Of a stretch of DNA of 64,000 nt, positions 17,123-39,347 are shown piece after piece. Numbering within the stretch: the first letter of the stretch is position 1; each line of letters starts with the position of its first letter. The stretch is from Streptomyces sp. NBC_00285. Its GTDB lineage: Bacteria > Actinomycetota > Actinomycetes > Streptomycetales > Streptomycetaceae. The stretch lies in NCBI RefSeq assembly GCF_036174265.1, contig NZ_CP108055.1:8990001-9054000 (forward strand), read 5' to 3'. The position numbers were made by a program, and so were the translations under genes. The notes beneath the pieces are model-generated. The model was not told the origin of the DNA. It saw only the letters and a program-made list of their open reading frames with translations, and ran no database searches.

Positions 17123-19012
17123 TTGAAGTCTGAGTCGAAGCCTGATTCGAAGGCGCACACAGACCCTGTCGTACCGGTGGCGCCGAGCCGCGGCCGGCTA
17201 CGCCCCCTCGGCCTCGACGAGGTCAGGATCACCGGCGGCTTCTGGGCCCGGCGCCGGGAGGTCAACGCCACCGCCACCCTCGACCACTGCCTCCACTGGA
17301 TGGAACGCGTCGGCTGGACCGGCAACTTCCGCGCCCCCGTACAGGAGCGGCGCGGACGGGAGTTCGCCGACTCCGACGTCTACAAGCTGCTCGAAGCGAT
17401 GGCCTGGGCGGGAACCGGGTCCGACCCGGTCACCGAGGCGATCGCCTCCGCCCAGGAACCCGACGGCTACCTCAACACCGCCTTCGGCAGGCCCGGTCAG
17501 CAACCCCGCTACAGCGACCTCGAATGGGGCCACGAGCTGTACTGCTACGGCCACCTGATCCAGGCCGGCGTCGCCCAGATCCGCACCCGCGGCGAAGGGG
17601 AGCTGGCGAAGACCGCCCAGCGGGCGGCCGACCATGTGTGCAACACCTTCGGGCCCGGCGGCATCGAGAGCGTCTGCGGACACCCGGAGATCGAGACGGC
17701 CCTCGTCGAGCTGGCCAGGGCCACCGGCGAACAGCGCTACCTCGACCAGGCCGCGCTCTTCGTCGACCGCCGGGGCCACGGCACGCTCGCCGACGGAGAG
17801 TTCGGCCGCGCCTACCACCAGGACGACCTCCCCGTACGGCAGGCGAGCGTCCTGCGCGGCCACGCAGTCCGTGCCCTCTACCTCGCGGCCGGTGCCGTCG
17901 ACGTGGCCGTGGAGACGCACGACGACGAACTCCTCGCGGCGGTCGTACGGCAGTGGGAGGCCACGGTCGCCCGACGCACCTACCTCACCGGTGGCATGGG
18001 CTCCCACCACCGCGACGAGTCGTTTGGCGACGACTTCGTCCTCCCGCCCGACCGCGCCTACTCGGAGACCTGCGCGGCCGTGGCCTCCGTGATGCTCAGC
18101 TGGCGCCTGCTCCTCGCCACCGGCGAACCGCGCTTCGCCGACCTCGCCGAGCGGACCCTGTTCAACGTCGTCGCGACCTCACCGTCCACGGACGGCCGGT
18201 CCTTCTTCTACGCCAACACCCTGCACCGCCGCCGGCGCGGCACCGTGCCCGCCGCGGACGCCGTGAGCCCACGCGCCGAATCCAGCCTGCGCGCCCCCTG
18301 GTTCGCGGTGTCATGCTGCCCGACCAACGTGGCGCGCACGCTGGCCCTGCTGCCCACCTACCTCGCGTCGGTCGACGACCAGGGCATCCAGCTCCACCAG
18401 TACGCGGACGCGGAGATCTCCGTGGACGGCATCGCCCTGCGGGTCCGCACCGATTACCCGTCCGGCGGGGCGGTGACCGTCCGGATCGCCCGCTCCCCGG
18501 ACCACCCGTGGACCCTGTCGTTGCGCGTCCCGGCGTGGACGCAGGGTGCCACGGCCTGGCTGGTGGACCCGGACGGAACCCGTCGCCCGGCCCCTCCGGG
18601 CACGGCCACGGTCACCCGGGTCTTCCGCCCCGGCGACGAGATCCGGCTCGAACTGCCCGTCGCACCCCGCTGGATCGAGGCGGACCCCCGCGTCGACGCG
18701 GTGCGCGGGACGCTCGCCGTCCAGCGCGGCCCGCTCGTGTACTGCGCCGAGTCCGTGGACCTGCCGGACGGGCGGGAGGCCGACGCCGTACGGGTGGATG
18801 CGGCCGCCGAGCCCGTGGACGGGCCGGACGGCACCGTCGTGGCCCCGGGTGAACTCACCGAGCCGGACGACCCGGCATGGCCCTACCGCCCGCACGGGCA
18901 CGCCACCGCACCCGCCGCCGAACCGGCGGGGATCACCCTGGTGCCGTACAACTCCTGGGCGAACCGCGGCCCTTCGACGATGCGCGTGTGGCTGCCCCTC
19001 ACCCAGCGCTGA
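17123..19012 (+). CDS. GH127-type beta-L-arabinofuranosidase
   Basis: A cytoplasmic (no signal peptide) glycosidase of 629 residues with the (alpha/alpha)6 catalytic domain of GH127 (PF07944), the family of bifidobacterial HypBA1, which removes beta-1,2-linked L-arabinofuranose. The zinc/nucleophile set known from HypBA1 (Glu, Cys, Cys-Cys) appears here as E315-T-C317 in AYSETCAAV and C398-C399 in SCCPTNVAR. The start is TTG at 17123, five bases after the permease stop with an AAGGGA site upstream. Its position in the transporter operon suggests it cleaves imported arabino-oligosaccharides inside the cell. Confidence 0.9.
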   Translation: MKSESKPDSKAHTDPVVPVAPSRGRLRPLGLDEVRITGGFWARRREVNATATLDHCLHWMERVGWTGNFRAPVQERRGREFADSDVYKLLEAMAWAGTGSDPVTEAIASAQEPDGYLNTAFGRPGQQPRYSDLEWGHELYCYGHLIQAGVAQIRTRGEGELAKTAQRAADHVCNTFGPGGIESVCGHPEIETALVELARATGEQRYLDQAALFVDRRGHGTLADGEFGRAYHQDDLPVRQASVLRGHAVRALYLAAGAVDVAVETHDDELLAAVVRQWEATVARRTYLTGGMGSHHRDESFGDDFVLPPDRAYSETCAAVASVMLSWRLLLATGEPRFADLAERTLFNVVATSPSTDGRSFFYANTLHRRRRGTVPAADAVSPRAESSLRAPWFAVSCCPTNVARTLALLPTYLASVDDQGIQLHQYADAEISVDGIALRVRTDYPSGGAVTVRIARSPDHPWTLSLRVPAWTQGATAWLVDPDGTRRPAPPGTATVTRVFRPGDEIRLELPVAPRWIEADPRVDAVRGTLAVQRGPLVYCAESVDLPDGREADAVRVDAAAEPVDGPDGTVVAPGELTEPDDPAWPYRPHGHATAPAAEPAGITLVPYNSWANRGPSTMRVWLPLTQR

Positions 19013-23255: not shown

Positions 23256-23933
23256 ATGACCGACTCAAGCCCGGCACTGGACCAGGAGCGGGCCGCCGTG
23301 GCGGACGCCTGCCGCCGTCTGGGAGCCGAGGGCCTGCTCATCGGTACGGCCGGCAACGTCAGCGTACGGGCCGGGGACCACGTGGCGATCACCGCGACCG
23401 GCGCGGTCCTCGCCGAGCTCACCCCGGACCAGGTGACCGTCGTCGACCTCGACGGCGAGATCGTGACCGGCAGCCTCCTGCCGACCTCCGAGCTCGACCT
23501 CCACCTGGGCGTCTACCGGCGATACGGCACCACCGCCGTCGTGCACACCCACGCCCCGATGGCCACCGCGCTCTCCCTCGTCCTCGACGAACTCCCCTGC
23601 ATCCATTACCAGATGCTGGCCCTCGGCGGCACCGTCAGGGTCGCGCCGTACGCCACCTTCGGCACCCCGGACCTCGCCGAGTCGGTCCTCGCCGCCCTGG
23701 AGGGCCGGGGCGCGGCCCTGATGGCCAACCACGGGGCCGTCACCCACGCCCCGAGCCTGGACAAGGCGGTCGAGCACGCGCTGCTCCTGGAGTGGGCCTG
23801 CGGCGTGTACCAGCACGCGGCCGCCCTCGGGAAACCACGCGCCCTCGACGAACAGCAGCAGATCGCGGTGATCGAGGCAGCCCTCGCCCGCAACTACGGC
23901 ACCACGCAATCCGCTCAGGAGGGAAACCGATGA
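23256..23933 (+). CDS. Class II aldolase (fuculose-phosphate aldolase type)
   Basis: A zinc-dependent class II aldolase/adducin-family protein of 225 residues, the size of L-fuculose-1-phosphate aldolase. Metal and substrate motifs: G-T-A-G-N-V-S-V-R near residue 31, the S-E-L-D-L-H loop with Glu/Asp, V-V-H-T-H-A-P (two zinc His) and M-A-N-H-G-A-V (third His). It cleaves a phosphorylated ketose to dihydroxyacetone phosphate and an aldehyde. TAGCGT seven bases before the ATG and no ribosome site suggest a leaderless mRNA. It overlaps the sugar kinase by four bases; the pair resembles a kinase-aldolase route for a deoxy- or pentulose sugar. Confidence 0.87.
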   Translation: MTDSSPALDQERAAVADACRRLGAEGLLIGTAGNVSVRAGDHVAITATGAVLAELTPDQVTVVDLDGEIVTGSLLPTSELDLHLGVYRRYGTTAVVHTHAPMATALSLVLDELPCIHYQMLALGGTVRVAPYATFGTPDLAESVLAALEGRGAALMANHGAVTHAPSLDKAVEHALLLEWACGVYQHAAALGKPRALDEQQQIAVIEAALARNYGTTQSAQEGNR

Positions 23934-28488: not shown

Positions 28489-29301
28489 TCAGGGTTTCAC
28501 GGCCACCGCGCCGAACTGCGGTACCACCACCGGGGTCCCGGACTCGGCACGCCACTGCGAGCAGGAGACCAGGCCGGGGTCGAGGAGGTCGAGGCCCTCG
28601 AAGAACGTGGCGATGTCCGCACCGCTGCGGGCGGTGATCGGCGGAGTGGCGTTCTCGTTCCAGAACTTCATGGCCGGGATCTGGCCCTCGCCGCCGAGGT
28701 CGGCGTCGAACGTGGGGTGCGTCAGGGCGAGATGGCTGCCCGCGGGCAGCGCGGACATAATCTCGCGCGCGATCCGCCGCGCCTCGTCGGTGTCGAGGAC
28801 GAAGTTGAGGATGCCGAGCATCATCACCGCGACCGGTTCGGTGAAGTCGAGGGTCCGCGCGGCGCGTTCGAGGATGGCGGCCGTGTCGTGGACGTCGGCG
28901 TCGATGTAGTCGGTGACGCCCTCCTGGGTGCTGGTCAGCAGGGTGCGGGCGTGGACGAGGACGATCGGGTCGTTGTCGACGTAGACGATCCGCGACTCGG
29001 GAGCGATGCGCTGGGCGATCTCGTGGGTGTTGTCCACCGTCGGCAGCCCGGTGCCGATGTCGAGAAACTGCCGGATGCCCTGCTCCTCGGCGAGGAAGCG
29101 CACCGAGCGGCCCAGGAACCAGCGGTCCGCGCGCGCGATCTCCCGGATGATCGGGAACATCCCGGCGACGTGATCGCCGACTCCCTGGTCGACCTCGTAG
29201 TTGTCCTTGCCGCCGATCCAGTAGTTCCACACGCGCGCGTTGTGCGCCACACCTGTGTTCAGCCTCGCCGACGCACCCGACGGGGTGTGGCTGTCGCTCA
29301 C
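28489..29301 (-). CDS. DUF574 (SAV2177-like) SAM methyltransferase
   Basis: A 270-residue methyltransferase-like protein of the actinomycete DUF574 family. Signature segments: A-R-V-W-N-Y-W-I-G-G-K-D-N-Y, the SAM-binding F-L-D-I-G-T-G-L-P-T, V-Y-V-D-N-D-P-I-V-L and the late W-R-A. Substrates are unknown for the family. GTG at 29301 is chosen because AAGGAG lies seven bases upstream; an ATG thirteen codons earlier is less likely. A paralogue is at 38553-39347. Confidence 0.9.
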   Translation of the reverse strand: MSDSHTPSGASARLNTGVAHNARVWNYWIGGKDNYEVDQGVGDHVAGMFPIIREIARADRWFLGRSVRFLAEEQGIRQFLDIGTGLPTVDNTHEIAQRIAPESRIVYVDNDPIVLVHARTLLTSTQEGVTDYIDADVHDTAAILERAARTLDFTEPVAVMMLGILNFVLDTDEARRIAREIMSALPAGSHLALTHPTFDADLGGEGQIPAMKFWNENATPPITARSGADIATFFEGLDLLDPGLVSCSQWRAESGTPVVVPQFGAVAVKP

Positions 29302-29424
29302 GACTGTGCTCCTTCTCGTGCGTACGGCCGTTGCCGCCATTGTGCCGCCCGATGATCAGCCTGTCCCCGAAACGGCGACTCGGACGCCCGCCGCCTTCCG
29401 CTGGAGCGATGCGGAAAGGGCCGG

Positions 29425-30364: not shown

Positions 30365-30399
30365 TCCCGGCGTCGTCGGTTGCGCATACCGTGATCGCC

Positions 30400-31545
30400 A
30401 TGAAGTCCGTTTCCGCCCGTGGCTGCGTATGGGGCGCAGGTGTGGGCGCCCTCGTCGCGGCGGCGGTGGTCGACCTCCTCGCCTCCGGCGCCGAGAGCGG
30501 CGTCCACTGGCTGCAGGTGGCCGTGCTGCTGCTCGGCGGCTCCGCCGTACTGTGGCCCGCCCACCGGCGTCCGCCCTGGCTCACCCCGCAGGTGCGTACG
30601 GTCGCGCCCGCCGTGGCCTCCCTCCTGTGCACGGCCGACTCGGTGGTGCGTTCCGGCGCCGACTTCGGCCCGGGTGAGCCGGCGATCCTGCTGTGCCTGC
30701 TGTTCGTCGCCGTACGGCACTGTCCGCGCAAAGCGGTGGTGGTGTGCGCGTCGCTCGACGGGGGCGCCGTGCTGGCGCTTCCGGTACGGGCGTTCCCGCA
30801 CCAGACCGACACCATGCTGGCGTACATGCTGGTCGGGCTCGTCCTGGTGGGGCTGACGGTGGCGTTCGCGGCGTATCTGCGCTCGCAGGACTACCGGCGG
30901 ACCGTCGCCGTCAGCGAGACCCGGCGCTCGGAGCGGCTCGCCATCGCCGCCGACCTGCACGACTTCGTCGCCCACCATGTCACCGGCATCCTGGTGCAGA
31001 CCCAGGTGGCCCGCATGATGGCGGACAACGACTCCGACGACCTCGACCCGGTCCTCGCCGGCATCGAGCGCGCCGCGACCGAGGCCCTCGCGTCGATGCG
31101 CCGCACGGTCGGTGTGCTGCGCGACACCGACGACGCGGCGGACCGCCGCCCCGTGGGCGACCTCGCGGGCATCGCCGGACTCATCGACGGCTTCGCGAGC
31201 CCCGTCCAGAAGGCGACCCTGCACCGCGGACCCGCCGTGCCCGACACCCTCCCGCACGAGGTCCAGGCGGCGGCCTTCCGCGTCGTGCAGGAGGCGCTGA
31301 CGAACGTACGGCGGCACGCGGGCGACGCCACCCAGGTCACCGTCGGGCTGCGGTACGAGGAAGGCCGCCTGGCGGTGACCGTGTCCGACGACGGGCGCGG
31401 TGGCAGCCAGTTGCCCGCCGCGGCGCACGGGGGCGGGTTCGGGCTGGTCGGGCTCAGGGAGCGGGTGACGGCACTGGGCGGGAAACTCCACGCGGGACCA
31501 CGGACCGGGCACGGGTGGGAGGTGCGGGCGATCTTCCCGGGGTGA
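30400..31545 (+). CDS. NarL-partner sensor histidine kinase
   Basis: A membrane histidine kinase of 381 residues. Several hydrophobic helices occupy residues 5-160; then comes the HisKA_3 dimerisation motif with phospho-acceptor His187 in AADLHDFVAHHVTG, and an ATPase domain with A-L-T-N-V-R-R-H-A (N box), VSDDGRGG and G-L-V-G-L-R-E-R. TACCGT lies seven bases before the ATG at 30400 and no ribosome site is present, so I prefer this start over the GTG at 30391 and expect a leaderless mRNA. It is divergent from its response regulator; more often such pairs are co-oriented. The signal is unknown. Confidence 0.9.
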   Translation: MKSVSARGCVWGAGVGALVAAAVVDLLASGAESGVHWLQVAVLLLGGSAVLWPAHRRPPWLTPQVRTVAPAVASLLCTADSVVRSGADFGPGEPAILLCLLFVAVRHCPRKAVVVCASLDGGAVLALPVRAFPHQTDTMLAYMLVGLVLVGLTVAFAAYLRSQDYRRTVAVSETRRSERLAIAADLHDFVAHHVTGILVQTQVARMMADNDSDDLDPVLAGIERAATEALASMRRTVGVLRDTDDAADRRPVGDLAGIAGLIDGFASPVQKATLHRGPAVPDTLPHEVQAAAFRVVQEALTNVRRHAGDATQVTVGLRYEEGRLAVTVSDDGRGGSQLPAAAHGGGFGLVGLRERVTALGGKLHAGPRTGHGWEVRAIFPG

Positions 31546-31656: not shown

Positions 31657-32289
31657 GTGTCCCCTGCCCCCGCGCCGTCCGTCGGCGCGCGCATCCGGCA
31701 GGCGCGTCTGGAGCGCGGCCTGGGCCTGCGCGCCCTGGCCCGCGAGATCGGCGTCTCCGCGAGCCTGGTCTCCCAGATCGAGACCGGCAAGAGCCAGCCG
31801 TCGGTGAGCACGCTGTACGCCATCACCACGGCTCTCGGGATCTCCGTCGAATCCCTGTTCGAGGTGCGGGAGACCGCCGTGGCGTTGAGTCCGGCCACCG
31901 TCGTGCCCGCCCTCGCGGCCTTCGCCGCCGACCCCGGCCGGCGTATCGGCCCCCTGGTCACCCCGGGTGAGCGGGAGGTGCTGGAACTGGACTCCGGCGT
32001 GGTGTGGGAGCGGCTCGGGCACGTCCCCGGCACGGACGTCGGCTTCCTCCTCGTCACCTACCGGCCCGGCGGCTCCTCCTCCGGCTCGGGCGGCCTGATG
32101 CGGCACGCCGGCACGGAGTACGGCTGTCTGACCTCCGGCGAACTCGTCCTGACCCTCGGTTTCGACGAGCAGGTCCTGCACCCCGGTGACGCCGTCTGCT
32201 TCGAGTCCACGACCCCCCACCGCTACCGCAACGACGGCGACGAGCCGGCCGTGGGCGTCTGGTTCGTGACCGGCCAAACTGTTCAGTGA
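31657..32289 (+). CDS. XRE-cupin transcriptional regulator
   Basis: A 210-residue regulator combining an N-terminal Cro/C1-type HTH (about residues 9-65; G-A-R-I-R-Q-A-R-L, VSASLVSQIETGKSQPS) with a C-terminal cupin-2 domain (about 115-200; HPGDAVCFESTTPHRYRN). Such proteins sense small catabolites. GTG at 31657 has GAGGAG eight bases upstream. It is the first gene of a seven-gene plus-strand cluster and probably controls it. TGTTCAATG upstream (31622-31630) and TGTTCAGTG at the end of the gene before the next promoter (32280-32288) could be its half-sites. Confidence 0.88.
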   Translation: MSPAPAPSVGARIRQARLERGLGLRALAREIGVSASLVSQIETGKSQPSVSTLYAITTALGISVESLFEVRETAVALSPATVVPALAAFAADPGRRIGPLVTPGEREVLELDSGVVWERLGHVPGTDVGFLLVTYRPGGSSSGSGGLMRHAGTEYGCLTSGELVLTLGFDEQVLHPGDAVCFESTTPHRYRNDGDEPAVGVWFVTGQTVQ

Positions 32290-32292
32290 CAC

Positions 32293-32321
32293 TTGACACC
32301 CCCCGCGGACGGTCGTTCACT
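32293..32321 (+). promoter_or_regulatory. Promoter of the M24/E1/amidohydrolase operon
   Basis: TTGACA (32293-32298), a 17-bp spacer and TTCACT (32316-32321). The element TGTTCAGTGACAC, also related to a site before the xre gene, directly precedes the -35. The -10 is weak. Confidence 0.5.
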
Positions 32322-32341
32322 CGAAGGTGGGGGTGGTCGCC

Positions 32342-33667
32342 ATGGCGATCCGCACTTACGGCCCCAACGCCGTCGACTGGGAAGAACGCGTCGACCTGGA
32401 CCGGCTGCGCCGGCAGCGCCTGGCCCGGCTCCACGACTCGCTGAACCGCTCCGAGCTGGGCGCCGTGCTCAGCTTCGACTTCGCCAACATCCGCTACATG
32501 ACCGCCACGCACATCGGCACCTGGGCGATGGACAAGCTGATCCGCTTCGCCCTGCTGGTCCGCGGCGGTGAACCGGTCGTCTGGGACTTCGGCTCGGCCG
32601 CCCGCCACCACCAGCTCTACAACCCCTGGCTCGACCACAGCGACGGCAAGGGCGGCCCGCCCACCGGAGCCCGCGCCGGCATCTCCACCCTGCGCGGCGC
32701 CTTCCACCCGGACGCGGGGATCGCCGAGGACGTCGCCGCGAAGGTCGCCTCGGAACTGCGCGCCCACGGCCTCGCCGGTGAACCGCTCGGCATCGACGTC
32801 GCCGAGATGCCCGTCCTGGCCGCCCTGCGGGCCGAGGGCATCGACGTAGTCGACGGTCAGCAGGTCTTCCTGGAGGCCCGCCGCGTCAAGACCGGAGACG
32901 AGATCTCCCTGCTCGCCCAGGCCTGCGCGATGGTCGACGCGGCCTACGAGGAGCTCTACGGCTACCTGCGCCCCGGCGTCCGCGAGAACGAGTGCGTGGG
33001 ACTCGTCAGCAAGGTCCTCTACGACCTGGGCAGCGAGTACGTCGAAGGCGTCAACGCCATCTCGGGGGAACGCTGTTCACCCCACCCGCACGTCTACAGC
33101 GACCGCCTGATCCGCCCCGGCGACCCCGCCTTCTTCGACATCCTGCACAGCCACCTCGGCTACCGCACCTGCTACTACCGCACCTTCGCCGTCGGCAGCG
33201 CCTCGCGCGCCCAGCAGGACGCCTACGTGCGCTGCCGGGAGTACATGGACGAGGCGATCTCCCTGGTCCGGCCCGGCGCCACCACCGCCGACATCGTCCA
33301 GGTGTGGCCGCGCGCCGAGGAGTTCGGCTTCGCCGACGAGACAGCCGCCTTCGCCCTCCAGTACGGCCACGGGGTGGGCCTGTCGATCTGGGAGAAGCCC
33401 ATCTTCAGCCGGCTGGTCTCCCTCGACCACCCCGAAGTCCTCGAAGCGGGCATGGTGTTCGCCCTGGAGACCTACTGGCCCGCCGCCGACGGCTGGTCCG
33501 CCGCCCGGATCGAGGAGGAACTGGTCGTCACCGCCGACGGCTGCGAGGTCATCACCAAGTTCCCCGCCGAGGAACTGCTGGTGGCGGGCCGCAAGTACTG
33601 GACGGTGGGCGGCGAGCTGAACACCCGCCGTGAGTCGCAGTCGCATCTCAACAACGGGAAGCACTGA
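32342..33667 (+). CDS. M24 (creatinase/aminopeptidase P-fold) protein with altered metal site
   Basis: A 441-residue protein with an N-terminal creatinase-like domain (about 1-175) and a pita-bread M24 domain (about 185-425). In metallo-aminopeptidases five residues (Asp, Asp, His, Glu, Glu) bind two metals. Here the first Asp is D266 in AFFDILHSH, but the second falls in G-Y-R-T-C277-Y-Y-R-T-F, where the family has G-Y-x-S-D-x-T-R-T, so it is Cys. The His (YGHGVGL), first Glu (ALETYW) and last Glu (RIEEELVVT) remain. A creatinase-like or lyase activity is as likely as peptidase. ATG 32342; the upstream frame is open to 32327. It shares one base with the next gene. Confidence 0.82.
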   Translation: MAIRTYGPNAVDWEERVDLDRLRRQRLARLHDSLNRSELGAVLSFDFANIRYMTATHIGTWAMDKLIRFALLVRGGEPVVWDFGSAARHHQLYNPWLDHSDGKGGPPTGARAGISTLRGAFHPDAGIAEDVAAKVASELRAHGLAGEPLGIDVAEMPVLAALRAEGIDVVDGQQVFLEARRVKTGDEISLLAQACAMVDAAYEELYGYLRPGVRENECVGLVSKVLYDLGSEYVEGVNAISGERCSPHPHVYSDRLIRPGDPAFFDILHSHLGYRTCYYRTFAVGSASRAQQDAYVRCREYMDEAISLVRPGATTADIVQVWPRAEEFGFADETAAFALQYGHGVGLSIWEKPIFSRLVSLDHPEVLEAGMVFALETYWPAADGWSAARIEEELVVTADGCEVITKFPAEELLVAGRKYWTVGGELNTRRESQSHLNNGKH

Positions 33668-34644
33668 TGGAAGCGGCCGAACTCCTCACCCTGTACGAGC
33701 AGATGGCCCTCATCCGCCGCACGGAGAAGGCCGCCCACGACCTGTTCCTCCAGGGCCTCGTCAAGGGCACCACCCACCTCGCCGCCGGCCACGAGGCGAT
33801 CGCCGTCGGAGCGAGCGCCGCCCTGCGCGACGACGACTACGTCTTCGCCACCTACCGCGGCCACCACCACGCGCTGGCCCGGGGCGCCACCCCGGAGGAA
33901 TGCCTCGCCGAACTCATGAGCAGGGCAACGGGGTTGTGCCGGGCCAAGGGCGGCTCCATGCACCTCACCAAGGCCGATGCGAACATGCTCGGTTCCTACG
34001 CCATCGTCGGCGCCCACCTCCCGATGGCGGTCGGCGCCGCCTGGTCCGCCCGGCTGCGCGGCACCGGACAGCTCGCGGTCGCCTTCTTCGGCGACGGCGC
34101 CACCAACATCGGTGCCTTCCACGAGGCGCTCAACCTGGCCGCCGTATGGAAGCTGCCCGTGCTGTTCATCTGCGAGAACAACCTGTACATGGAGTACACG
34201 CCGATCGCCTCCGTGACCGCGGTGCCCCGGCCCGCCGCCGACCGGGCACCCGCGTACGGCATCCCCGGCGAGGTCGTCGACGGCAACGACGTCGTCGCCG
34301 TACGAGAGGTGGTGGCACGGCTGGCGCGGCGGGCCCGGGCCGGAGACGGGCCCGCTGTGCTGGAGGCCGAGACCTACCGTCACTTCGGGCACAGCCGGAC
34401 CGATCCGGCGACGTACCGCCCGGCCGAGGAGGTCGAACGCTGGCTCAGGCACGACCCGTTGGACATCGCGCGGGGCCGGCTGACCGAGGCCGGAGTGCCG
34501 CAGGAGACGGTCGACGCGGCCGACGCGCGCGCCCAGGAGACCGTACGACAGGCCGTCGAGGCGGCGAAGGGCGCACCGCCGCCGGATCCGGGCGAGGCGT
34601 TCACCGACGTATGGGCCGACGGAGGTGCCGCATGGCGGACGTGA
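33667..34644 (+). CDS. 2-oxoacid dehydrogenase E1 component, alpha subunit
   Basis: ThDP-dependent E1 alpha of 325 residues, AcoA/PdhA type. Features: T-Y-R-G-H-H-H-A-L-A-R-G, the G-G-S-M-H-L loop, and the ThDP motif G142-D-G-A-T-N ... C-E-N-N. Together with the next gene it forms an alpha2beta2 decarboxylase that normally passes an acyl group to a lipoyl E2. The ATG overlaps the stop of the M24 gene by one base (TGATG). No E2 or E3 is in the cluster, so it either borrows another complex's E2 or releases its product differently. Confidence 0.9.
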   Translation: MEAAELLTLYEQMALIRRTEKAAHDLFLQGLVKGTTHLAAGHEAIAVGASAALRDDDYVFATYRGHHHALARGATPEECLAELMSRATGLCRAKGGSMHLTKADANMLGSYAIVGAHLPMAVGAAWSARLRGTGQLAVAFFGDGATNIGAFHEALNLAAVWKLPVLFICENNLYMEYTPIASVTAVPRPAADRAPAYGIPGEVVDGNDVVAVREVVARLARRARAGDGPAVLEAETYRHFGHSRTDPATYRPAEEVERWLRHDPLDIARGRLTEAGVPQETVDAADARAQETVRQAVEAAKGAPPPDPGEAFTDVWADGGAAWRT

Positions 34645-35612
34645 TCACCTATCGCGAGGCGGTCGCCGAGGGCATCGCGCGGGAGATGCGCCGGGACACG
34701 GCCGTCGTGTGCCTGGGGGAGGACATCGGCGAGGCCGGCGGGGTGTTCAAGACGACCGCCGGGCTCTTCAAGGAGTTCGGACCCGAGCGGGTGTGGGACA
34801 CCCCGATCTCCGAACAGGCCATCGTGGGTGCGGCGATGGGCGCCGCGATGACCGGGATGCGGCCCGTCGCGGAGATCATGTTCTCCGACTTCCTTGCCTG
34901 TTGCTGGGACTACCTCGCCAACGAGATACCCAAGGTGCGGTACATGACGGGCGGTCAGGTCACCGTGCCCCTCGTCGTTCGCACCGCCAACGGCGGCGGG
35001 CTCGGTTTCGGCGCCCAGCACTCCCAGGCCACCGAGAACTGGGCGCTGACCGTTCCCGGGCTGAAGATCGCGGCGCCTTCCACTCCCGCCGACGTGGTCG
35101 GGATGATGGCGGCGGCGATCCGCAGCGACGACCCGGTCGTCTTCTTCGAGCACAAGGGACTGCTGGCCACCAAGGGCGCGCCCCCGCCACCGGGCCACGT
35201 GGTCGAGCTGGGCCGGGCCGCCGTCGTCCGTGAGGGCGCCGACGTGACGCTGGTGGCGCTCGCGTCGATGGTGCCGGTCGCGCTGAAGGCGGCCGCACTG
35301 CTCGCCGTGGACGGCATCGACGTCGAGGTCGTCGACCTGCGCTGTCTCGTCCCCCTGGACATGGCCACCGTCCTCGCCTCACTCGGCCGGACGTCCCGGC
35401 TGGTCGTCGTCGAGGAGAACCCGTACCAGGGCGGCTGGGGCGCCACCGTCGTCTCCGTCGTCGCCGACGAGGGGTTCGGGCTGCTGGACGCGCCGGTGCG
35501 GCGGGTGGCGGGGGAGTGCGTGCCGCTGCCGTTCGCCGACGCGCTGGAGGAACAGGTCATTCCCACCGTCGACAAGGTCGTGGCGGCCGTCAGGAGCCTG
35601 GCCGCGTACTGA
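34632..35612 (+). CDS. 2-oxoacid dehydrogenase E1 component, beta subunit
   Basis: E1 beta of 326 residues, AcoB/PdhB type: Y-R-E-A-V-A-E-G-I near the start, G-E-D-I-G with the ThDP-activating Glu, DTPISEQAIVGAAMGAA, and a C-terminal transketolase-C domain (V-E-V-V-D-L-R-C-L-V-P-L-D). Start ATG 34632 with GGAGG upstream, 13 bp inside the alpha-subunit gene. Best matches by motif are to branched-chain/acetoin-type enzymes; the substrate oxoacid is unknown. Confidence 0.9.
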   Translation: MADVITYREAVAEGIAREMRRDTAVVCLGEDIGEAGGVFKTTAGLFKEFGPERVWDTPISEQAIVGAAMGAAMTGMRPVAEIMFSDFLACCWDYLANEIPKVRYMTGGQVTVPLVVRTANGGGLGFGAQHSQATENWALTVPGLKIAAPSTPADVVGMMAAAIRSDDPVVFFEHKGLLATKGAPPPPGHVVELGRAAVVREGADVTLVALASMVPVALKAAALLAVDGIDVEVVDLRCLVPLDMATVLASLGRTSRLVVVEENPYQGGWGATVVSVVADEGFGLLDAPVRRVAGECVPLPFADALEEQVIPTVDKVVAAVRSLAAY

Positions 35613-35634
35613 ACACCCCTGAGGAGGAAGCGCG

Positions 35635-36981
35635 ATGACCCATCGGACACTCCTTCGTGCCGGACATGTGCTCTCGATGGACCCCGCGGTCGGGGACCTG
35701 CCGAGGGGAGACGTCCTGATCGAGGACGGCAGGATCGCGGCGGTGGAGCGCGAGATCAGCGCGGACGCCGAAGTCCTCGACATGACCGGCCGGATCGTCA
35801 TCCCCGGCTTCGTCGACACCCACCGCCACACCTGGGAGGCCTCGATCCGGAACGTGGCGCCCGACGCCACCCTCGACGACTACTTCGTCGACATCCTCGA
35901 CACCTTCGCGCCCCTCTACACACCCGAGGACGTGTACGCCGCCAACCTCGCGGGCGCCCTGGAATGCCTCAACGCCGGCATCACCACGCTCGTCGACTGG
36001 TCCCACATCAACAACACCCCCGAGCACCCGGACGCGGCGATCCGGGCCCTCACGGAGAGCGGCATCCGCGCCCAGTACGCGTACGGCAGCGCCAACACCT
36101 CCCTCGCCGACTACTGGTTCGAGAGCAAGATCGCGATCCCGGGCGACGACGTACGCCGCATCCGCACCGAGCACTTCGCCTCCGACGACGGCCTGCTCAC
36201 CCTGGCCCTGGCCACCCGCGGCCCCGGTTTCTGCGTCACCGACGTCGTCACCTCCGAATGGGCCCTGGCCCGCGAACTCGACATCCCGATCACCGTGCAC
36301 GTGGCCATGGGACGGCTCGCCGGCCGCTTCGGCATGGTCAAGCAGCTCCACGACCTCGGCCTCCTCGGCCCCGACACCACCTACATCCACTGCTGCCATC
36401 TCAGCGAGGAGGAGTGGCGGCTGGTCGCCGACAGCGGCGGTACGGTCTCCATCGCGCCGCAGGTCGAGACGCAGATGGGGCACGGCTGGCCGCCGGTGAT
36501 GAAGGCGATCGAGTACGGGCTGCGACCGTCGCTCAGCATCGACGTCGTCACCACCGTGCCCGGCGACATGTTCACCCAGATCCGCGCGGCCTTCGGCGCC
36601 GAGCGTGCCCGCGTCAACGCAGCCAGCTGGCAGGCCGATGTACCGGTCCCCGACACGATGTTGACGGCACGTCAGATGCTGGAGATCGCCACCCGCAACG
36701 GCGCGCATGTGGCGGGCCTGGAGGGCCGCACCGGCTCGCTAACCCCGGGCAGGCGTGCCGACGTCGTCGCGATCGACGCGACCGCCCTGAACGTGGCCCC
36801 GGTTCACGACGCCGCCGCGGCGGTGGCACTGAGCGCCGACGTCTCCAACGTGGAGACCGTCATCGTCGACGGGGTCGTCCGCAAGCGCGACGGAAAGCTC
36901 ACGGCCGACACGGCACGCGCCGTGCGGCTCGTCGAGGAGTCCCGCGACCGGCTGCTGGCCGCCAAGGAGGCCCGGGCGTGA
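35635..36981 (+). CDS. Amidohydrolase of the AtzA/TrzN/8-oxoguanine deaminase group
   Basis: A 448-residue amidohydrolase with an N- and C-terminal beta-sandwich around a TIM barrel. Metal ligands: H63-R-H65 in VDTHRHTW, His in PITVHVAMG, and Asp in LSIDVVTTVPGD; a His in TYIHCCHLS and Glu nearby complete the site. Relatives hydrolyse amino or chloro groups on N-heterocycles and cytosine or guanine analogues. The ATG at 35635 has AGGAGGA upstream. In this operon it may open or deaminate a nitrogenous substrate. Four-base overlap with the bicupin gene. Confidence 0.87.
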   Translation: MTHRTLLRAGHVLSMDPAVGDLPRGDVLIEDGRIAAVEREISADAEVLDMTGRIVIPGFVDTHRHTWEASIRNVAPDATLDDYFVDILDTFAPLYTPEDVYAANLAGALECLNAGITTLVDWSHINNTPEHPDAAIRALTESGIRAQYAYGSANTSLADYWFESKIAIPGDDVRRIRTEHFASDDGLLTLALATRGPGFCVTDVVTSEWALARELDIPITVHVAMGRLAGRFGMVKQLHDLGLLGPDTTYIHCCHLSEEEWRLVADSGGTVSIAPQVETQMGHGWPPVMKAIEYGLRPSLSIDVVTTVPGDMFTQIRAAFGAERARVNAASWQADVPVPDTMLTARQMLEIATRNGAHVAGLEGRTGSLTPGRRADVVAIDATALNVAPVHDAAAAVALSADVSNVETVIVDGVVRKRDGKLTADTARAVRLVEESRDRLLAAKEARA

Positions 36982-37850
36982 CACGGCACCTGGTGCGCCG
37001 GGCCACCGACGCCCCACAGCCGTCGTACGACGAACACGGCTACCGGCGACGGGAGTTGGTCGGCGAGGGCGACGGCAGCTCGCACACCGGTTTCGGGGTG
37101 TGCGAGCTGCGCCCCGACGGGACGGTCGCGGCCCATGTGCACTCGTACGAGGAGAGCTTCCACGTCCTCGACGGGACCGTGATCCTCGATGCGCCCGAAG
37201 GGTCGTATCTGCTGGAGGACGGTGACTACGGGCTCCTTCCGACCGGAGTCCCGCACGCCTGGCGCGGTGCCGGGGACGGCGTCGCCCGCTGGGCGGACAT
37301 GCTGGCGCCGGTACCGAGAGCCCGGTATGGGTACGACACCACGTCCGTCCCCCCGTGGCCCGTGCGCCCGCCCGTCCGCATCGACGTCCGCGACCCGCGC
37401 ACCCGGTCCTTCGGTCACTTCGAACCCGCCCAGATGGATCCCGGGAAGCAGTCCCAGGACCTGCTCGCGGTCTCGGCGAGCATGCGCACGGCGCTCCTCG
37501 TGTACAGCGGAATCACCGTGAAGATGATGGTCGACGGCGATCTGGGCGCGGTCGCCTCGACGATGTTCATGGTGCAGTACGCGCCCGACGGCGTCGCGGG
37601 CACCCACGATCATCCCTTCGAGGAGACCTATCTGTTCCTCGAAGGTGAGGCGGACGCGGTCTTCGACGGTTCGCGACACCGGCTCGGCCCGGGCGACTGC
37701 GCGTGGGCGGGCGCCGGTTGCGTGCACGGCTTCGCCAACGCCGGTGACGGGCCGCTGCGTTGGCTGGAAACACAGGCACCGCAACCGCCGGTGCGGCACT
37801 CCTACCGGTTCACCAGGGACTGGGAGTACCTGAGGGAGGCGTCCCGATGA
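36978..37850 (+). CDS. Two-domain cupin (bicupin) protein
   Basis: A 290-residue protein with two cupin domains. Each keeps a metal-type motif: A-A-H-V-H-S-Y-E-E-S-F near residue 53 and T-H-D-H-P-F-E-E-T-Y near residue 210, with matching C-terminal His motifs (P-H-A-W, V-H-G-F). The arrangement recalls (S)-ureidoglycine aminohydrolase and other bicupins. The GTG at 36978 overlaps the previous stop by four bases. Function probably enzymatic within this operon, since both metal sites look intact. Confidence 0.83.
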   Translation: MTRHLVRRATDAPQPSYDEHGYRRRELVGEGDGSSHTGFGVCELRPDGTVAAHVHSYEESFHVLDGTVILDAPEGSYLLEDGDYGLLPTGVPHAWRGAGDGVARWADMLAPVPRARYGYDTTSVPPWPVRPPVRIDVRDPRTRSFGHFEPAQMDPGKQSQDLLAVSASMRTALLVYSGITVKMMVDGDLGAVASTMFMVQYAPDGVAGTHDHPFEETYLFLEGEADAVFDGSRHRLGPGDCAWAGAGCVHGFANAGDGPLRWLETQAPQPPVRHSYRFTRDWEYLREASR

Positions 37851-38536
37851 GCAGTGTCGTGGTGGTCGGCGGAACCTCGGGCATCGGGCGGGAGTTCGCC
37901 CGGGTGCGCGCGGCGCGGGGCGACGAGGTGGTGATCACCGGACGGGACGCCCACCGCACGGACACCGTGGCCAAGGAGATCGGCGCCCGGGGGCTCGCCC
38001 TCGATCTCGCCCGGCCCAGGGGGATCGCCGACGCGCTGAGCGACGTGGGACGCGTCGACCACCTCGTGCTCGCGGGTGTCTCCCGTGACGAGAACCGGGT
38101 GAGCGACTACGACATCGACGCGGCCGTCCACCTCGTCACGCTCAAACTCGTCGGCTACACCGAGGTCGTGCACACACTGCGGTCCCGGCTGCACGACGAC
38201 AGCGCCATCGTGCTGTTCGGCGGCCAGGCCAAGGAGCGCCCCTATCCCGGGGCGACGACCGTGGCGACCGTCAACGCCGGAGTGAGGGGGCTGACGCACA
38301 CCCTCGCCGTCGAACTCGCTCCCGTCCGGGTCAACGCGATCCATCCCGGTGTGGTGGGGGACAGCCCCTACTGGCGGGCCAAACCGGAGGAGGTACTGGC
38401 GGGACCGCGGGCCAGGACACCGACGGGACGGCTCGCGAGCGTGGCGGACGTGGTGGACGCCGTGGACTTCCTGCTGCGCAACGGCTCCGTCAACGCGGTG
38501 GAGTTGAGCGTGGACGGCGGATGGCTGCTGGGGTGA
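37847..38536 (+). CDS. SDR-fold protein lacking the catalytic Ser-Tyr-Lys
   Basis: A 229-residue short-chain dehydrogenase-fold protein. The nucleotide-binding motif G-G-T-S-G-I-G is intact at residues 8-14. The catalytic set is not: the Ser strand reads I-V-L-F-G-G-Q, and the segment that should be Y-x-x-x-K before A-x-x-x-x-L reads V-A-T-V-N-A-G-V-R-G-L, so Tyr and Lys are Val and Asn. It may bind NAD(P) without classical oxidoreductase chemistry, or use other residues. It overlaps the bicupin gene by four bases (ATGA) and ends the operon; AGGGAGG precedes the ATG. Confidence 0.82.
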   Translation: MSSVVVVGGTSGIGREFARVRAARGDEVVITGRDAHRTDTVAKEIGARGLALDLARPRGIADALSDVGRVDHLVLAGVSRDENRVSDYDIDAAVHLVTLKLVGYTEVVHTLRSRLHDDSAIVLFGGQAKERPYPGATTVATVNAGVRGLTHTLAVELAPVRVNAIHPGVVGDSPYWRAKPEEVLAGPRARTPTGRLASVADVVDAVDFLLRNGSVNAVELSVDGGWLLG

Positions 38537-38552: not shown

Positions 38553-39347
38553 TCAGCGCTTGATGCCGACCGCCCCGTACAGCGACACGAGGTCGCCGTC
38601 CTCCCGCTCGTCCGGACGCCACCGCGACAGGGACACGATCCCGGGCTCCAGCACCTCAAGTCCCTTGAAGAGACGGCTCACTTCGTCGTGCGAGCGGGCC
38701 ACCAGGGTCACCCCGCTCGCCGTGTACGCCGCGATGCCCGCGTTCACCTTCTCCGGATCGAAGTCCGCCGTCATCGCCGACAGCACCAGACAGCTGCCCG
38801 GGGCGAGCGCACCGACCAGCTTGTCCACCAGCTCCTGGGCGCCGTCCTCGTCGGAGATGAAGTGCAGCAGGGCGACCAGCGACAGCGCGACGGGCTGCTC
38901 GAAGTCGAGGACGGCCGAGGCTCCTTGGAGGATCCGCTCCGGTTCGCGGGCGTCGGCCTGCAGGTAGTGCGTCGCCCCCTCCGGCGTGCCGTGCAGCAGG
39001 GCCGCCGCGTGGGCGAGGACGATCGGGTCGTTGTCGACGTACACCACCCGCGCGTCCGGTACGGCGGACTGGGCGATCTGGTGGAGGTTGGGCTCGGTGG
39101 GGATGCCGGAGCCGATGTCGAGGAACTGGCGGATTCCCGCCTCCCGCACGGCGACCCGCGTGGCCCGCTCCATGAAGCGGCGGTTGGCGCGCGCCTGCCG
39201 GGGAGCGTCCCCCTGGGCCGTGATCCGCCGTCCGAGTTCCTCGTCGACGGGGTAGTTGTCCTTCCCGCCGAGGAACCAGTCGTACACCCGTGCCGAATGC
39301 GGCCTGCTCGTGTCGATCCGCCGGCCGGCCGACTCGGTCCCGGTCAC
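38553..39347 (-). CDS. DUF574 (SAV2177-like) SAM methyltransferase, second copy
   Basis: A 264-residue paralogue of the protein at 28489-29301, with the same V-Y-D-W-F-L-G-G-K-D-N-Y, F-L-D-I-G-S-G-I-P-T and V-Y-V-D-N-D-P-I-V-L segments. Substrate unknown. GTG at 39347 with a GAGGAG site a few bases upstream. It converges on the SDR gene 16 bp away, so the two paralogues bracket the TCS and the XRE/E1 operon. Confidence 0.88.
   Translation of the reverse strand: MTGTESAGRRIDTSRPHSARVYDWFLGGKDNYPVDEELGRRITAQGDAPRQARANRRFMERATRVAVREAGIRQFLDIGSGIPTEPNLHQIAQSAVPDARVVYVDNDPIVLAHAAALLHGTPEGATHYLQADAREPERILQGASAVLDFEQPVALSLVALLHFISDEDGAQELVDKLVGALAPGSCLVLSAMTADFDPEKVNAGIAAYTASGVTLVARSHDEVSRLFKGLEVLEPGIVSLSRWRPDEREDGDLVSLYGAVGIKR

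Follow-up and report, generated by a model that had tools for sequence, protein, structure and literature searches.

An M24-family enzyme and an acetoin-like E1 pair in a predicted seven-gene catabolic operon of Streptomyces

What reaction sequence could bring together an M24-fold enzyme, a thiamine diphosphate (ThDP)-dependent E1 pair, an amidohydrolase, a bicupin and an atypical short-chain dehydrogenase/reductase (SDR) behind a single regulator gene? This question is raised by seven + strand open reading frames (ORFs) located at positions 31657-38536 of a 64,000-nucleotide stretch of Streptomyces sp. NBC_00285, hereafter the window (the whole stretch analysed, positions 8990001-9054000 of contig NZ_CP108055.1, in a genome of 10.3 Mb). 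An original prediction made from the DNA letters had named these families and proposed an undescribed catabolic operon. Reading of the ORFs together with family models recovered all seven families on the + strand, and among the matches listed, the nearest named relatives of the proteins are from Streptomyces. All seven proteins fall into known superfamilies, and the claim of novelty at the level of the gene set has held: neither a pathway with this set nor M24 catabolism of this kind was found described in open-licence full texts, a corpus with subscription journals and preprints outside. Texts on ephedrine degradation and on sulfonamide plasmids in the same corpus offered nothing relevant. 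The probable role of the operon is degradation of a small carbon compound, along a route of which no description turned up. Tentatively, and with somewhat less than an even chance of being right, it is proposed to be a catabolic system in which the M24 enzyme and its partners unmask an alpha-hydroxyketone, a 1,2-dicarbonyl or a 2-oxo compound that is then cleaved by an acetoin-like E1.

Conservation of the gene set

Gene order was compared across 80 named-genome loci, the top-ranking ones among at least 539 confirmed. The full seven-gene set, in the same order and on the same strand, was found in 65 of these loci, and the six genes from M24 to SDR, ordered and on one strand, in 70. Conservation to this extent shows that the seven genes form a real operon rather than a chance arrangement, and the conservation that the original prediction had asked to be checked was thus found. 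Among the 15 incomplete loci, five are cut by the end of the available sequence (L052, L066, L109, L111 and L117) and four have a divergent regulator (L112, L113, L118 and L120). The remaining six loci depart from the pattern, in fact or in appearance: L056, which is discussed below; L107, in which the bicupin was not detected in the 80-locus comparison; L115, in which neither amidohydrolase nor bicupin was detected; L114 and L119, with an M24 gene without the other six though the sequence runs on; and L116, where the genes stand in a different order.

The co-occurrence of these genes was also borne out. In 200 Streptomycetaceae genomes, M24 proteins of at least 93% identity were found in 12, and bicupins (at least 80%) and amidohydrolases (at least 85%) occurred in exactly these 12 genomes and in none besides. 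Two further genomes (G021 and G141) encode a 44-45% identical bicupin sharing a contig with a 59-60% identical M24.

The genes are closely packed. Following a 52-bp gap between the XRE-cupin and M24 genes, M24 and E1 alpha overlap by 1 bp, E1 alpha and E1 beta by 13 bp, amidohydrolase and bicupin by 4 bp, and bicupin and SDR by 4 bp. The overlaps of 1-13 bp announced from the M24 gene on are therefore present at four of the five junctions, the fifth, between E1 beta and amidohydrolase, being a 22-bp gap (35613-35634).

The M24 enzyme and its ThDP-dependent partners

The neighbourhoods of M24 genes were examined beyond close relatives of the operon. Loci were drawn from near relatives, Streptomycetaceae paralogues, plasmids and a phylum survey, in which a profile search (E <= 1e-60) recovered M24 in 40 of the 396 genomes drawn from the phylum. 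The resulting 77 loci are not an independent sample, and L209/L210 and L211/L212 overlap; seven were dropped for want of an M24 ORF from the simple ORF caller used, leaving 70. As this caller misses genes, the neighbour counts are lower bounds. E1 alpha was found near M24 in 39 of the 70 loci and E1 alpha or beta in 43; of 68 loci (L041 and L046 left out), 30 have E1 alpha directly beside M24 in the same orientation. As a yardstick for chance, the host genome contains nine E1_dh matches, six of them strong, in its 10.3 Mb. Other neighbours were beta-hydroxyacid dehydrogenases of the HIBADH/TSR type (28/70), aldehyde dehydrogenases (ALDHs; 25/70), LacI regulators (19/70), amidohydrolases (18/70) and bicupins (13/70).

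Several arrangements recur. In other Actinomycetota, the order M24-E1 alpha-E1 beta-ALDH is found in L190, L193-L195, L197 and L219; amidohydrolase, bicupin and SDR genes are added after it in L200, and also in L202, where M24 has moved. Roseobacter plasmids, with an M24 about 55% identical, carry SDR-M24-E1 alpha-E1 beta-E2-ALDH-E2' beside a ribose-type ATP-binding cassette (ABC) transporter, with lpdA next in Phaeobacter; their catalytic E2 subunit most resembles the acetyltransferases of pyruvate dehydrogenase (PDH), with 329 bits against a cut-off of 552. On a plasmid of Haloferax mediterranei (L220, 11761-19669), E1 alpha and beta lie directly beside a 34% identical M24 and a ThDP-binding protein is encoded within 3 kb, all in less than 8 kb; a ThDP-binding protein is likewise encoded near M24 in Natrialba. 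In L027 and L029, split transketolase-like halves adjoin M24 instead of E1. The halves of L027 score 196 and 212 bits with transketolase models, below the cut-off of 488, and those of L029 belong to the same sequence clusters. Collectively, these neighbourhoods show, by comparison, an association of M24 with ThDP enzymes. The strongest hint at the chemistry comes from the repeated pairing of different ThDP enzymes with the same M24: the M24 enzyme would make or prepare a compound whose carbonyl adjoins a C-C bond that can be cleaved.

In the Streptomyces operon, the ThDP enzyme is of the acetoin/pyruvate type. E1 alpha (33667-34644, + strand, 325 aa) and E1 beta (34632-35612, + strand, 326 aa) contain the domains of 2-oxoacid/acetoin dehydrogenase E1 components (PF00676, 252.8 bits; PF02779, 144.2 bits; PF02780, 125.1 bits), and E1 alpha reaches 338.6 bits with the PDH model TIGR03182, whose cut-off is 393.85. 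The relationships of the pair were studied with a midpoint-rooted tree of 30 concatenated alpha/beta pairs, from which M24 loci lacking one subunit or with fused subunits were omitted and in which the remaining loci were partly used. The actinobacterial M24-linked pairs form one clade (support 1.0), including one Rhodococcus pair that stands beside an ALDH and not M24. Its sister, with support of 0.96, is a group that includes two aco operons, one recognized by its acetoin reductase and butanediol dehydrogenase and the other by an acetoin-dehydrogenase E2, together with a Thermus pair annotated acoA. The Roseobacter M24-linked pairs branch within this acetoin group, with support of 0.84-0.87; that of Haloferax represents a separate lineage. 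The three other E1 alpha/beta sets of the host fall outside both the clade and the acetoin group; they match TIGR03181 (the 'x' type of PDH E1 alpha), with a score above the cut-off for one partial sequence out of three. The ThDP-dependent processing that had been predicted thus stands in kind, with a carbonyl intermediate and an E1 pair placed away from the other sets of the host. On a Rhodococcus USK13 plasmid (L224, 7849-12999), an E1 pair of the operon's clade accompanies a Rieske-type oxygenase and an ALDH, with no M24 in that stretch.

The two labelled aco operons contain the nearest labelled relatives of the Streptomyces E1 in the tree; their subunits are likewise of about 325 aa and 40-46% identical to it. 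As in acoABC/acoD, an ALDH follows in related M24 loci, with E2 in Roseobacters and E3 in Phaeobacter. The Streptomyces operon differs from aco operons by the absence of E2 and E3 and by the additional M24, PRK08204 amidohydrolase, bicupin and atypical SDR. It therefore does not have the E1, E2 and E3 composition of an acetoin dehydrogenase operon, of which Roseobacter M24 loci have E2 and one of them E3.

Several observations weigh against cleavage by an acetoin-like E1. The tree has few labelled tips, and as it holds no TIGR03182-type ('y') PDH reference, its split between acetoin and pyruvate enzymes is provisional; a pair from Sphingobium, with an alpha subunit also annotated as an acetoin oxidoreductase, lies just outside the acetoin group. 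The one subfamily-level model passed by E1 beta is NF006667 (337.1 vs 321 bits), which is named for PDH. The operon has no E2; five E2 genes are found at other places in the genome. Moreover, 27 of the 70 M24 loci have no called E1 ORF, some being cut by contig ends, and in S. fulvoviolaceus (L056, 10001-14600) both E1 genes are gone between M24 and amidohydrolase while the other five genes are kept, a natural deletion. As for the substrate, no evidence was found.

Some of these facts favour a course that is unlikely but still deserves consideration, in which the upstream enzymes would deliver a 2-oxoacid, to be decarboxylated by E1. The decarboxylation would either involve housekeeping E2/E3 or proceed without E2 and yield a free aldehyde, to be oxidized by an ALDH resembling succinate-semialdehyde dehydrogenase (SSADH). 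The NF006667 match, the five E2 genes and the solved structures closest to E1 alpha, which are PDHs, agree with it, as do the SSADH-like ALDHs near M24 in L202 and L124 (567 and 555 bits against a cut-off of 646). However, the E1 pair groups with acetoin-operon E1s and not with the TIGR03181-type E1s of the host, and a split transketolase stands in the place of E1 in L027 and L029. Transketolases use ketols rather than 2-oxoacids.

The M24 enzyme itself (32342-33667, + strand, 441 aa from its ATG) was assigned by PF00557 (128 bits, curated cut-off 23) and by alignments. Canonical dinuclear M24 metallopeptidases bind their metals through Asp, Asp, His, Glu and Glu. In the subfamily signature GYR[TS]CYYRT, which reads GYRTCYYRT here, Cys277 occupies the place of the second Asp ligand of solved relatives, so that the five-ligand set is incomplete and the metal site differs from those of the aligned solved M24 relatives. 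Cys stands at this place in every one of the 13 rows of one alignment (A1) and the 17 of another (A3), in both of which R244, C245, H248, H250, D266, H343, E376 and E391 are invariant, and it is kept in a haloarchaeal relative of 35% identity (L128, GYRSCYYRT). The enzyme belongs to a sharply defined subfamily, possibly a new one. At least 8000 relatives occur in soil-type sequence data; the best 120 listed, mostly from metagenome sources, are all at least 83% identical.

The closest solved relatives are Xaa-Pro dipeptidases and the dimethylsulfoniopropionate lyase DddP. In a predicted structural model of low confidence (mean predicted local distance difference test, pLDDT, 66), DddP, Xaa-Pro dipeptidase, the ectoine hydrolase DoeA and creatinase rank within about 2.5 Z; owing to this low confidence, the ranking indicates a 'pita-bread' fold and no more. 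For DddP, the ligands are reported to be Asp295, Asp297, Asp307, His371, Glu406 and Glu421, with Asp377 as the preferred base (PMC4108388); Asp307 corresponds to the Cys of the present M24 and Asp377 is unmatched. Scores for the specific models of these enzymes are low (DddP, NF043017, 114.1 bits vs a cut-off of 600; DoeA, NF038259, 56.6 vs 575, and TIGR02993, 46.4 vs 613), and creatinase and DoeA, which are M24 non-peptidases, have partner genes that differ from those of the Streptomyces operon. That the protein is an ordinary Xaa-Pro or related dipeptidase, in an operon for peptides or opines, is very improbable: NCBI names its relatives Xaa-Pro or M24 peptidases and its modelled fold is tied with Xaa-Pro dipeptidase, but the Cys at the second Asp ligand is invariant, the PepQ model gives 72.5 bits vs a cut-off of 630, and the operon includes no peptide transporter.

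A broader scenario may be considered, although it is unlikely. M24 would represent a new class with an Asp-to-Cys metal site that eliminates a substituent bound through C-N or C-O (an aminoketose/Amadori-type or ether-type compound could be the substrate) to form a 1,2-dicarbonyl or acyloin, and cleaving ThDP enzymes (acetoin-like E1s, another E1 lineage and a split transketolase) would have been recruited independently in Actinomycetota, Roseobacters and haloarchaea, in a widespread undescribed soil-carbon pathway. If M24 is indeed central in ThDP-linked catabolism, many genomes are mislabelled and a soil-carbon pathway is missing from metabolic maps.

Candidate reactions and substrates

To return to the proposed unmasking and cleavage of a carbonyl compound, the steps may be drawn as follows from families and gene context. 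The metal-dependent M24 would break a C-N or C-O bond, acting as a lyase or hydrolase rather than as a peptidase, and the PRK08204 amidohydrolase and atypical SDR would assist it in unmasking the carbonyl compound. The acetoin-like E1 alpha/beta would cleave the bond beside the carbonyl with ThDP. A small acyl unit, probably acetyl, would pass to a lipoyl E2 encoded elsewhere or be released, while the other half would leave as an aldehyde to be oxidized by an SSADH-like ALDH, which is part of the operon in other Actinomycetota and not in this Streptomyces. The bicupin probably oxidizes or isomerizes an enolized intermediate.

The original prediction had instead started from an N-heterocycle or amide, deaminated or hydrolyzed by an AtzA/TrzN-like amidohydrolase before C-N cleavage by M24 and consumption of a 2-oxoacid by E1. 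The amidohydrolase-superfamily enzyme (35635-36981, + strand, 448 aa) passes the PRK08204 model NF006056 (630.5 vs a cut-off of 391 bits), as do its relatives in L031 and L118; that of L204 does not (359 bits). With AtzB- and 8-oxoguanine-deaminase-like enzymes it has in common the superfamily and the metal-binding His and Asp residues, which are kept. It differs from them by its PRK08204 subfamily, by a low score with the 8-oxoguanine deaminase model (150.5 vs 532 bits) and by a Met where AtzB-like deaminases have the Glu of HxxE. Among 22 aligned relatives, none of the 21 with a residue there has this Glu, L026 having an Asp. By this residue the protein does not qualify as an AtzA/TrzN/AtzB-type deaminase-hydrolase. 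In addition, the SDR (37847-38536, + strand, 229 aa, PRK07041-like with 141 bits, below the cut-off of 257) lacks the classical Ser and Tyr-x3-Lys: V139 and N143 replace the catalytic Tyr and Lys and a Gly stands at the Ser place, as conserved in a 15-row alignment.

Given the missing HxxE Glu, the missing Tyr and Lys of the SDR and the Cys for an Asp ligand in M24, deamination of an N-heterocycle is unsupported, and this route as a whole is quite unlikely. It would have in its favour the presence of creatinase and ectoine hydrolase among the M24 fold relatives, a gene resembling gamma-glutamylputrescine synthetase in L116 (206 bits vs a cut-off of 650) and, near M24 on Paenarthrobacter plasmids, RidA and, once, an amidase and a Liv-type transporter; RidA and the amidase are not part of the Streptomyces operon. 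A beta-hydroxyacid dehydrogenase, an SDR and lpdA are also M24 neighbours on such plasmids. These plasmid M24 islands (L122, 12196-18002; L123/L129) include one, in L122, that adjoins sulR, a flavin reductase gene listed as a sulfonamide gene, a link which may be mere neighbourhood.

Amidohydrolases 41-43% identical to that of the operon are found in L130, L132 and L133, clustered with genes of the FAH family, VOC proteins, extradiol dioxygenases or CoA-transferases. Such company may point to action of the subfamily on C-C or lactone bonds, not on amines. The VOC, FAH-family and extradiol dioxygenase genes are also among the points in favour of degradation of aromatic or lignin-type ethers or ketones, in which M24 would cleave a C-O bond and E1 the side chain of an aryl-propanedione or acyloin. 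The bicupin (36978-37850, + strand, 290 aa, GTG start) fits this as well, having a fold like quercetinase and salicylate/gentisate dioxygenases, with the metal residues H, H, E and H in both cupin motifs. Its identity to the quercetin 2,3-dioxygenase YxaG, also a bicupin, is 17%; homologues in L021, L113, L198 and L200 are without some N-terminal site residues, and the (S)-ureidoglycine aminohydrolase model TIGR03214 gives 21.1 vs 200 bits.

Two loci and a plasmid suggest an aromatic context, and also count against the preferred proposal. In L021 (14428-18154), an 80% identical M24 lies near a DesA/LigM-like O-demethylase gene (566 bits, below the DesA cut-off of 800), purU and a gene resembling methylenetetrahydrofolate reductase (MTHFR) as judged from its sequence, and the same three genes occur in L023. 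On the R. opacus 1CP plasmid (L222), E1/E2/E3, SSADH, a GST-domain protein, MTHFR and pabB are encoded at least about 45 kb from M24, in a region rich in insertion sequences. Against aromatic degradation stand the absence of any ring-modifying or ring-cleaving gene from the Streptomyces operon and the sugar-type transporters of Roseobacters and several actinobacterial loci, and we regard it as improbable.

The transporters point, on genomic context, in another direction: together with LacI, sugar-type systems in several loci suggest polyol- or sugar-like compounds. The substrate of unmasking and ThDP-dependent cleavage is probably a small polar compound of sugar or polyol type, or an amine derivative. 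The transporters are nevertheless heterogeneous, which is another point on the opposing side: ATPases near M24 are of the Liv type in 18 of the 70 loci, of the RbsA-like sugar type in 13 and Pot-like in one, and since they vary, the substrates may differ. The Roseobacter sugar-type binding protein matches many ribose and sugar binders, the Liv-type one matches exclusively binders of amino acids or amides or of unnamed ligands, and no ligand could be named from these two comparisons.

The absence of a transporter from the Streptomyces operon could also be read, with its local regulator of apparently single target, as the sign of a biosynthetic or signalling operon devoted to small-molecule or cofactor tailoring. 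An E1 without E2 can work as a carboligase, which would suit such a role. Yet the neighbours elsewhere are ABC importers, LacI regulators, ALDH and E2/E3, the loci showed no evident biosynthetic gene cluster, though no search was aimed at one, and this function is given little credence. Pantothenate degradation was considered and dropped: the dehydrogenases and E1 would fit, but M24, bicupin and amidohydrolase do not. Methylerythritol and mycosporines were likewise considered and dropped.

Regulation and surroundings of the operon

The first gene of the operon encodes an XRE-cupin transcriptional regulator (31657-32289, + strand, 210 aa, Pfam HTH_3 and Cupin_2). Between it and M24 lies a 19-bp near-palindromic putative operator, TGTTCAGTG-A-CACTTGACA (32280-32298, + strand; here TGTTCAGTGACACTTGACA), an imperfect palindrome with agreement at 7 of 9 half-site positions, which overlaps the XRE-cupin stop codon and the -35-like element of a putative promoter for M24 to SDR. 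This promoter (32293-32321, + strand), read from the sequence and also visible in the locus alignment, would consist of TTGACA at 32293-32298 and a weak -10-like TTCACT at 32316-32321, with 17-bp spacing.

The pattern NGTTCAGTN5TTGACA is present once in the window and is conserved in 71 of 73 intergenic regions, all except those of L111 and L116. Allowing up to two mismatches, the operator is found at the operon locus in all 12 carrier genomes; no further site exists in 11 of them, and one, with two mismatches, exists in G182. A control with the reversed pattern gave one match across the 12 genomes, among which no second conserved operator target was found. Where the regulator is divergent, a related palindrome, TGTTAAGTA-n-TACTTGAC, is present in L113 and L120 (equalled by 1 of 200 and 0 of 200 random stretches of the same length from the locus), and weaker matches are present in L112 and L118 (1/200 and 4/200). 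Because the putative operator occurs once in 11 of 12 carriers and twice in one, the simplest reading is that the XRE-cupin protein is probably a dedicated local regulator acting on it. The operon is thus a compact unit with one predicted regulatory site per genome in these 11 carriers, and it is found in culturable Streptomyces, S. canus and S. viridochromogenes among them.

A histidine-kinase-like gene (30391-31545) lies immediately 5' of the operon. Genes of the Methyltransf_19 family (S-adenosyl methyltransferases), both on the - strand, flank the region just downstream (38553-39347) and further upstream (28489-29340). Farther upstream in the window are genes for a GH127 beta-L-arabinofuranosidase (17123-19012) and a class II aldolase (23256-23933).

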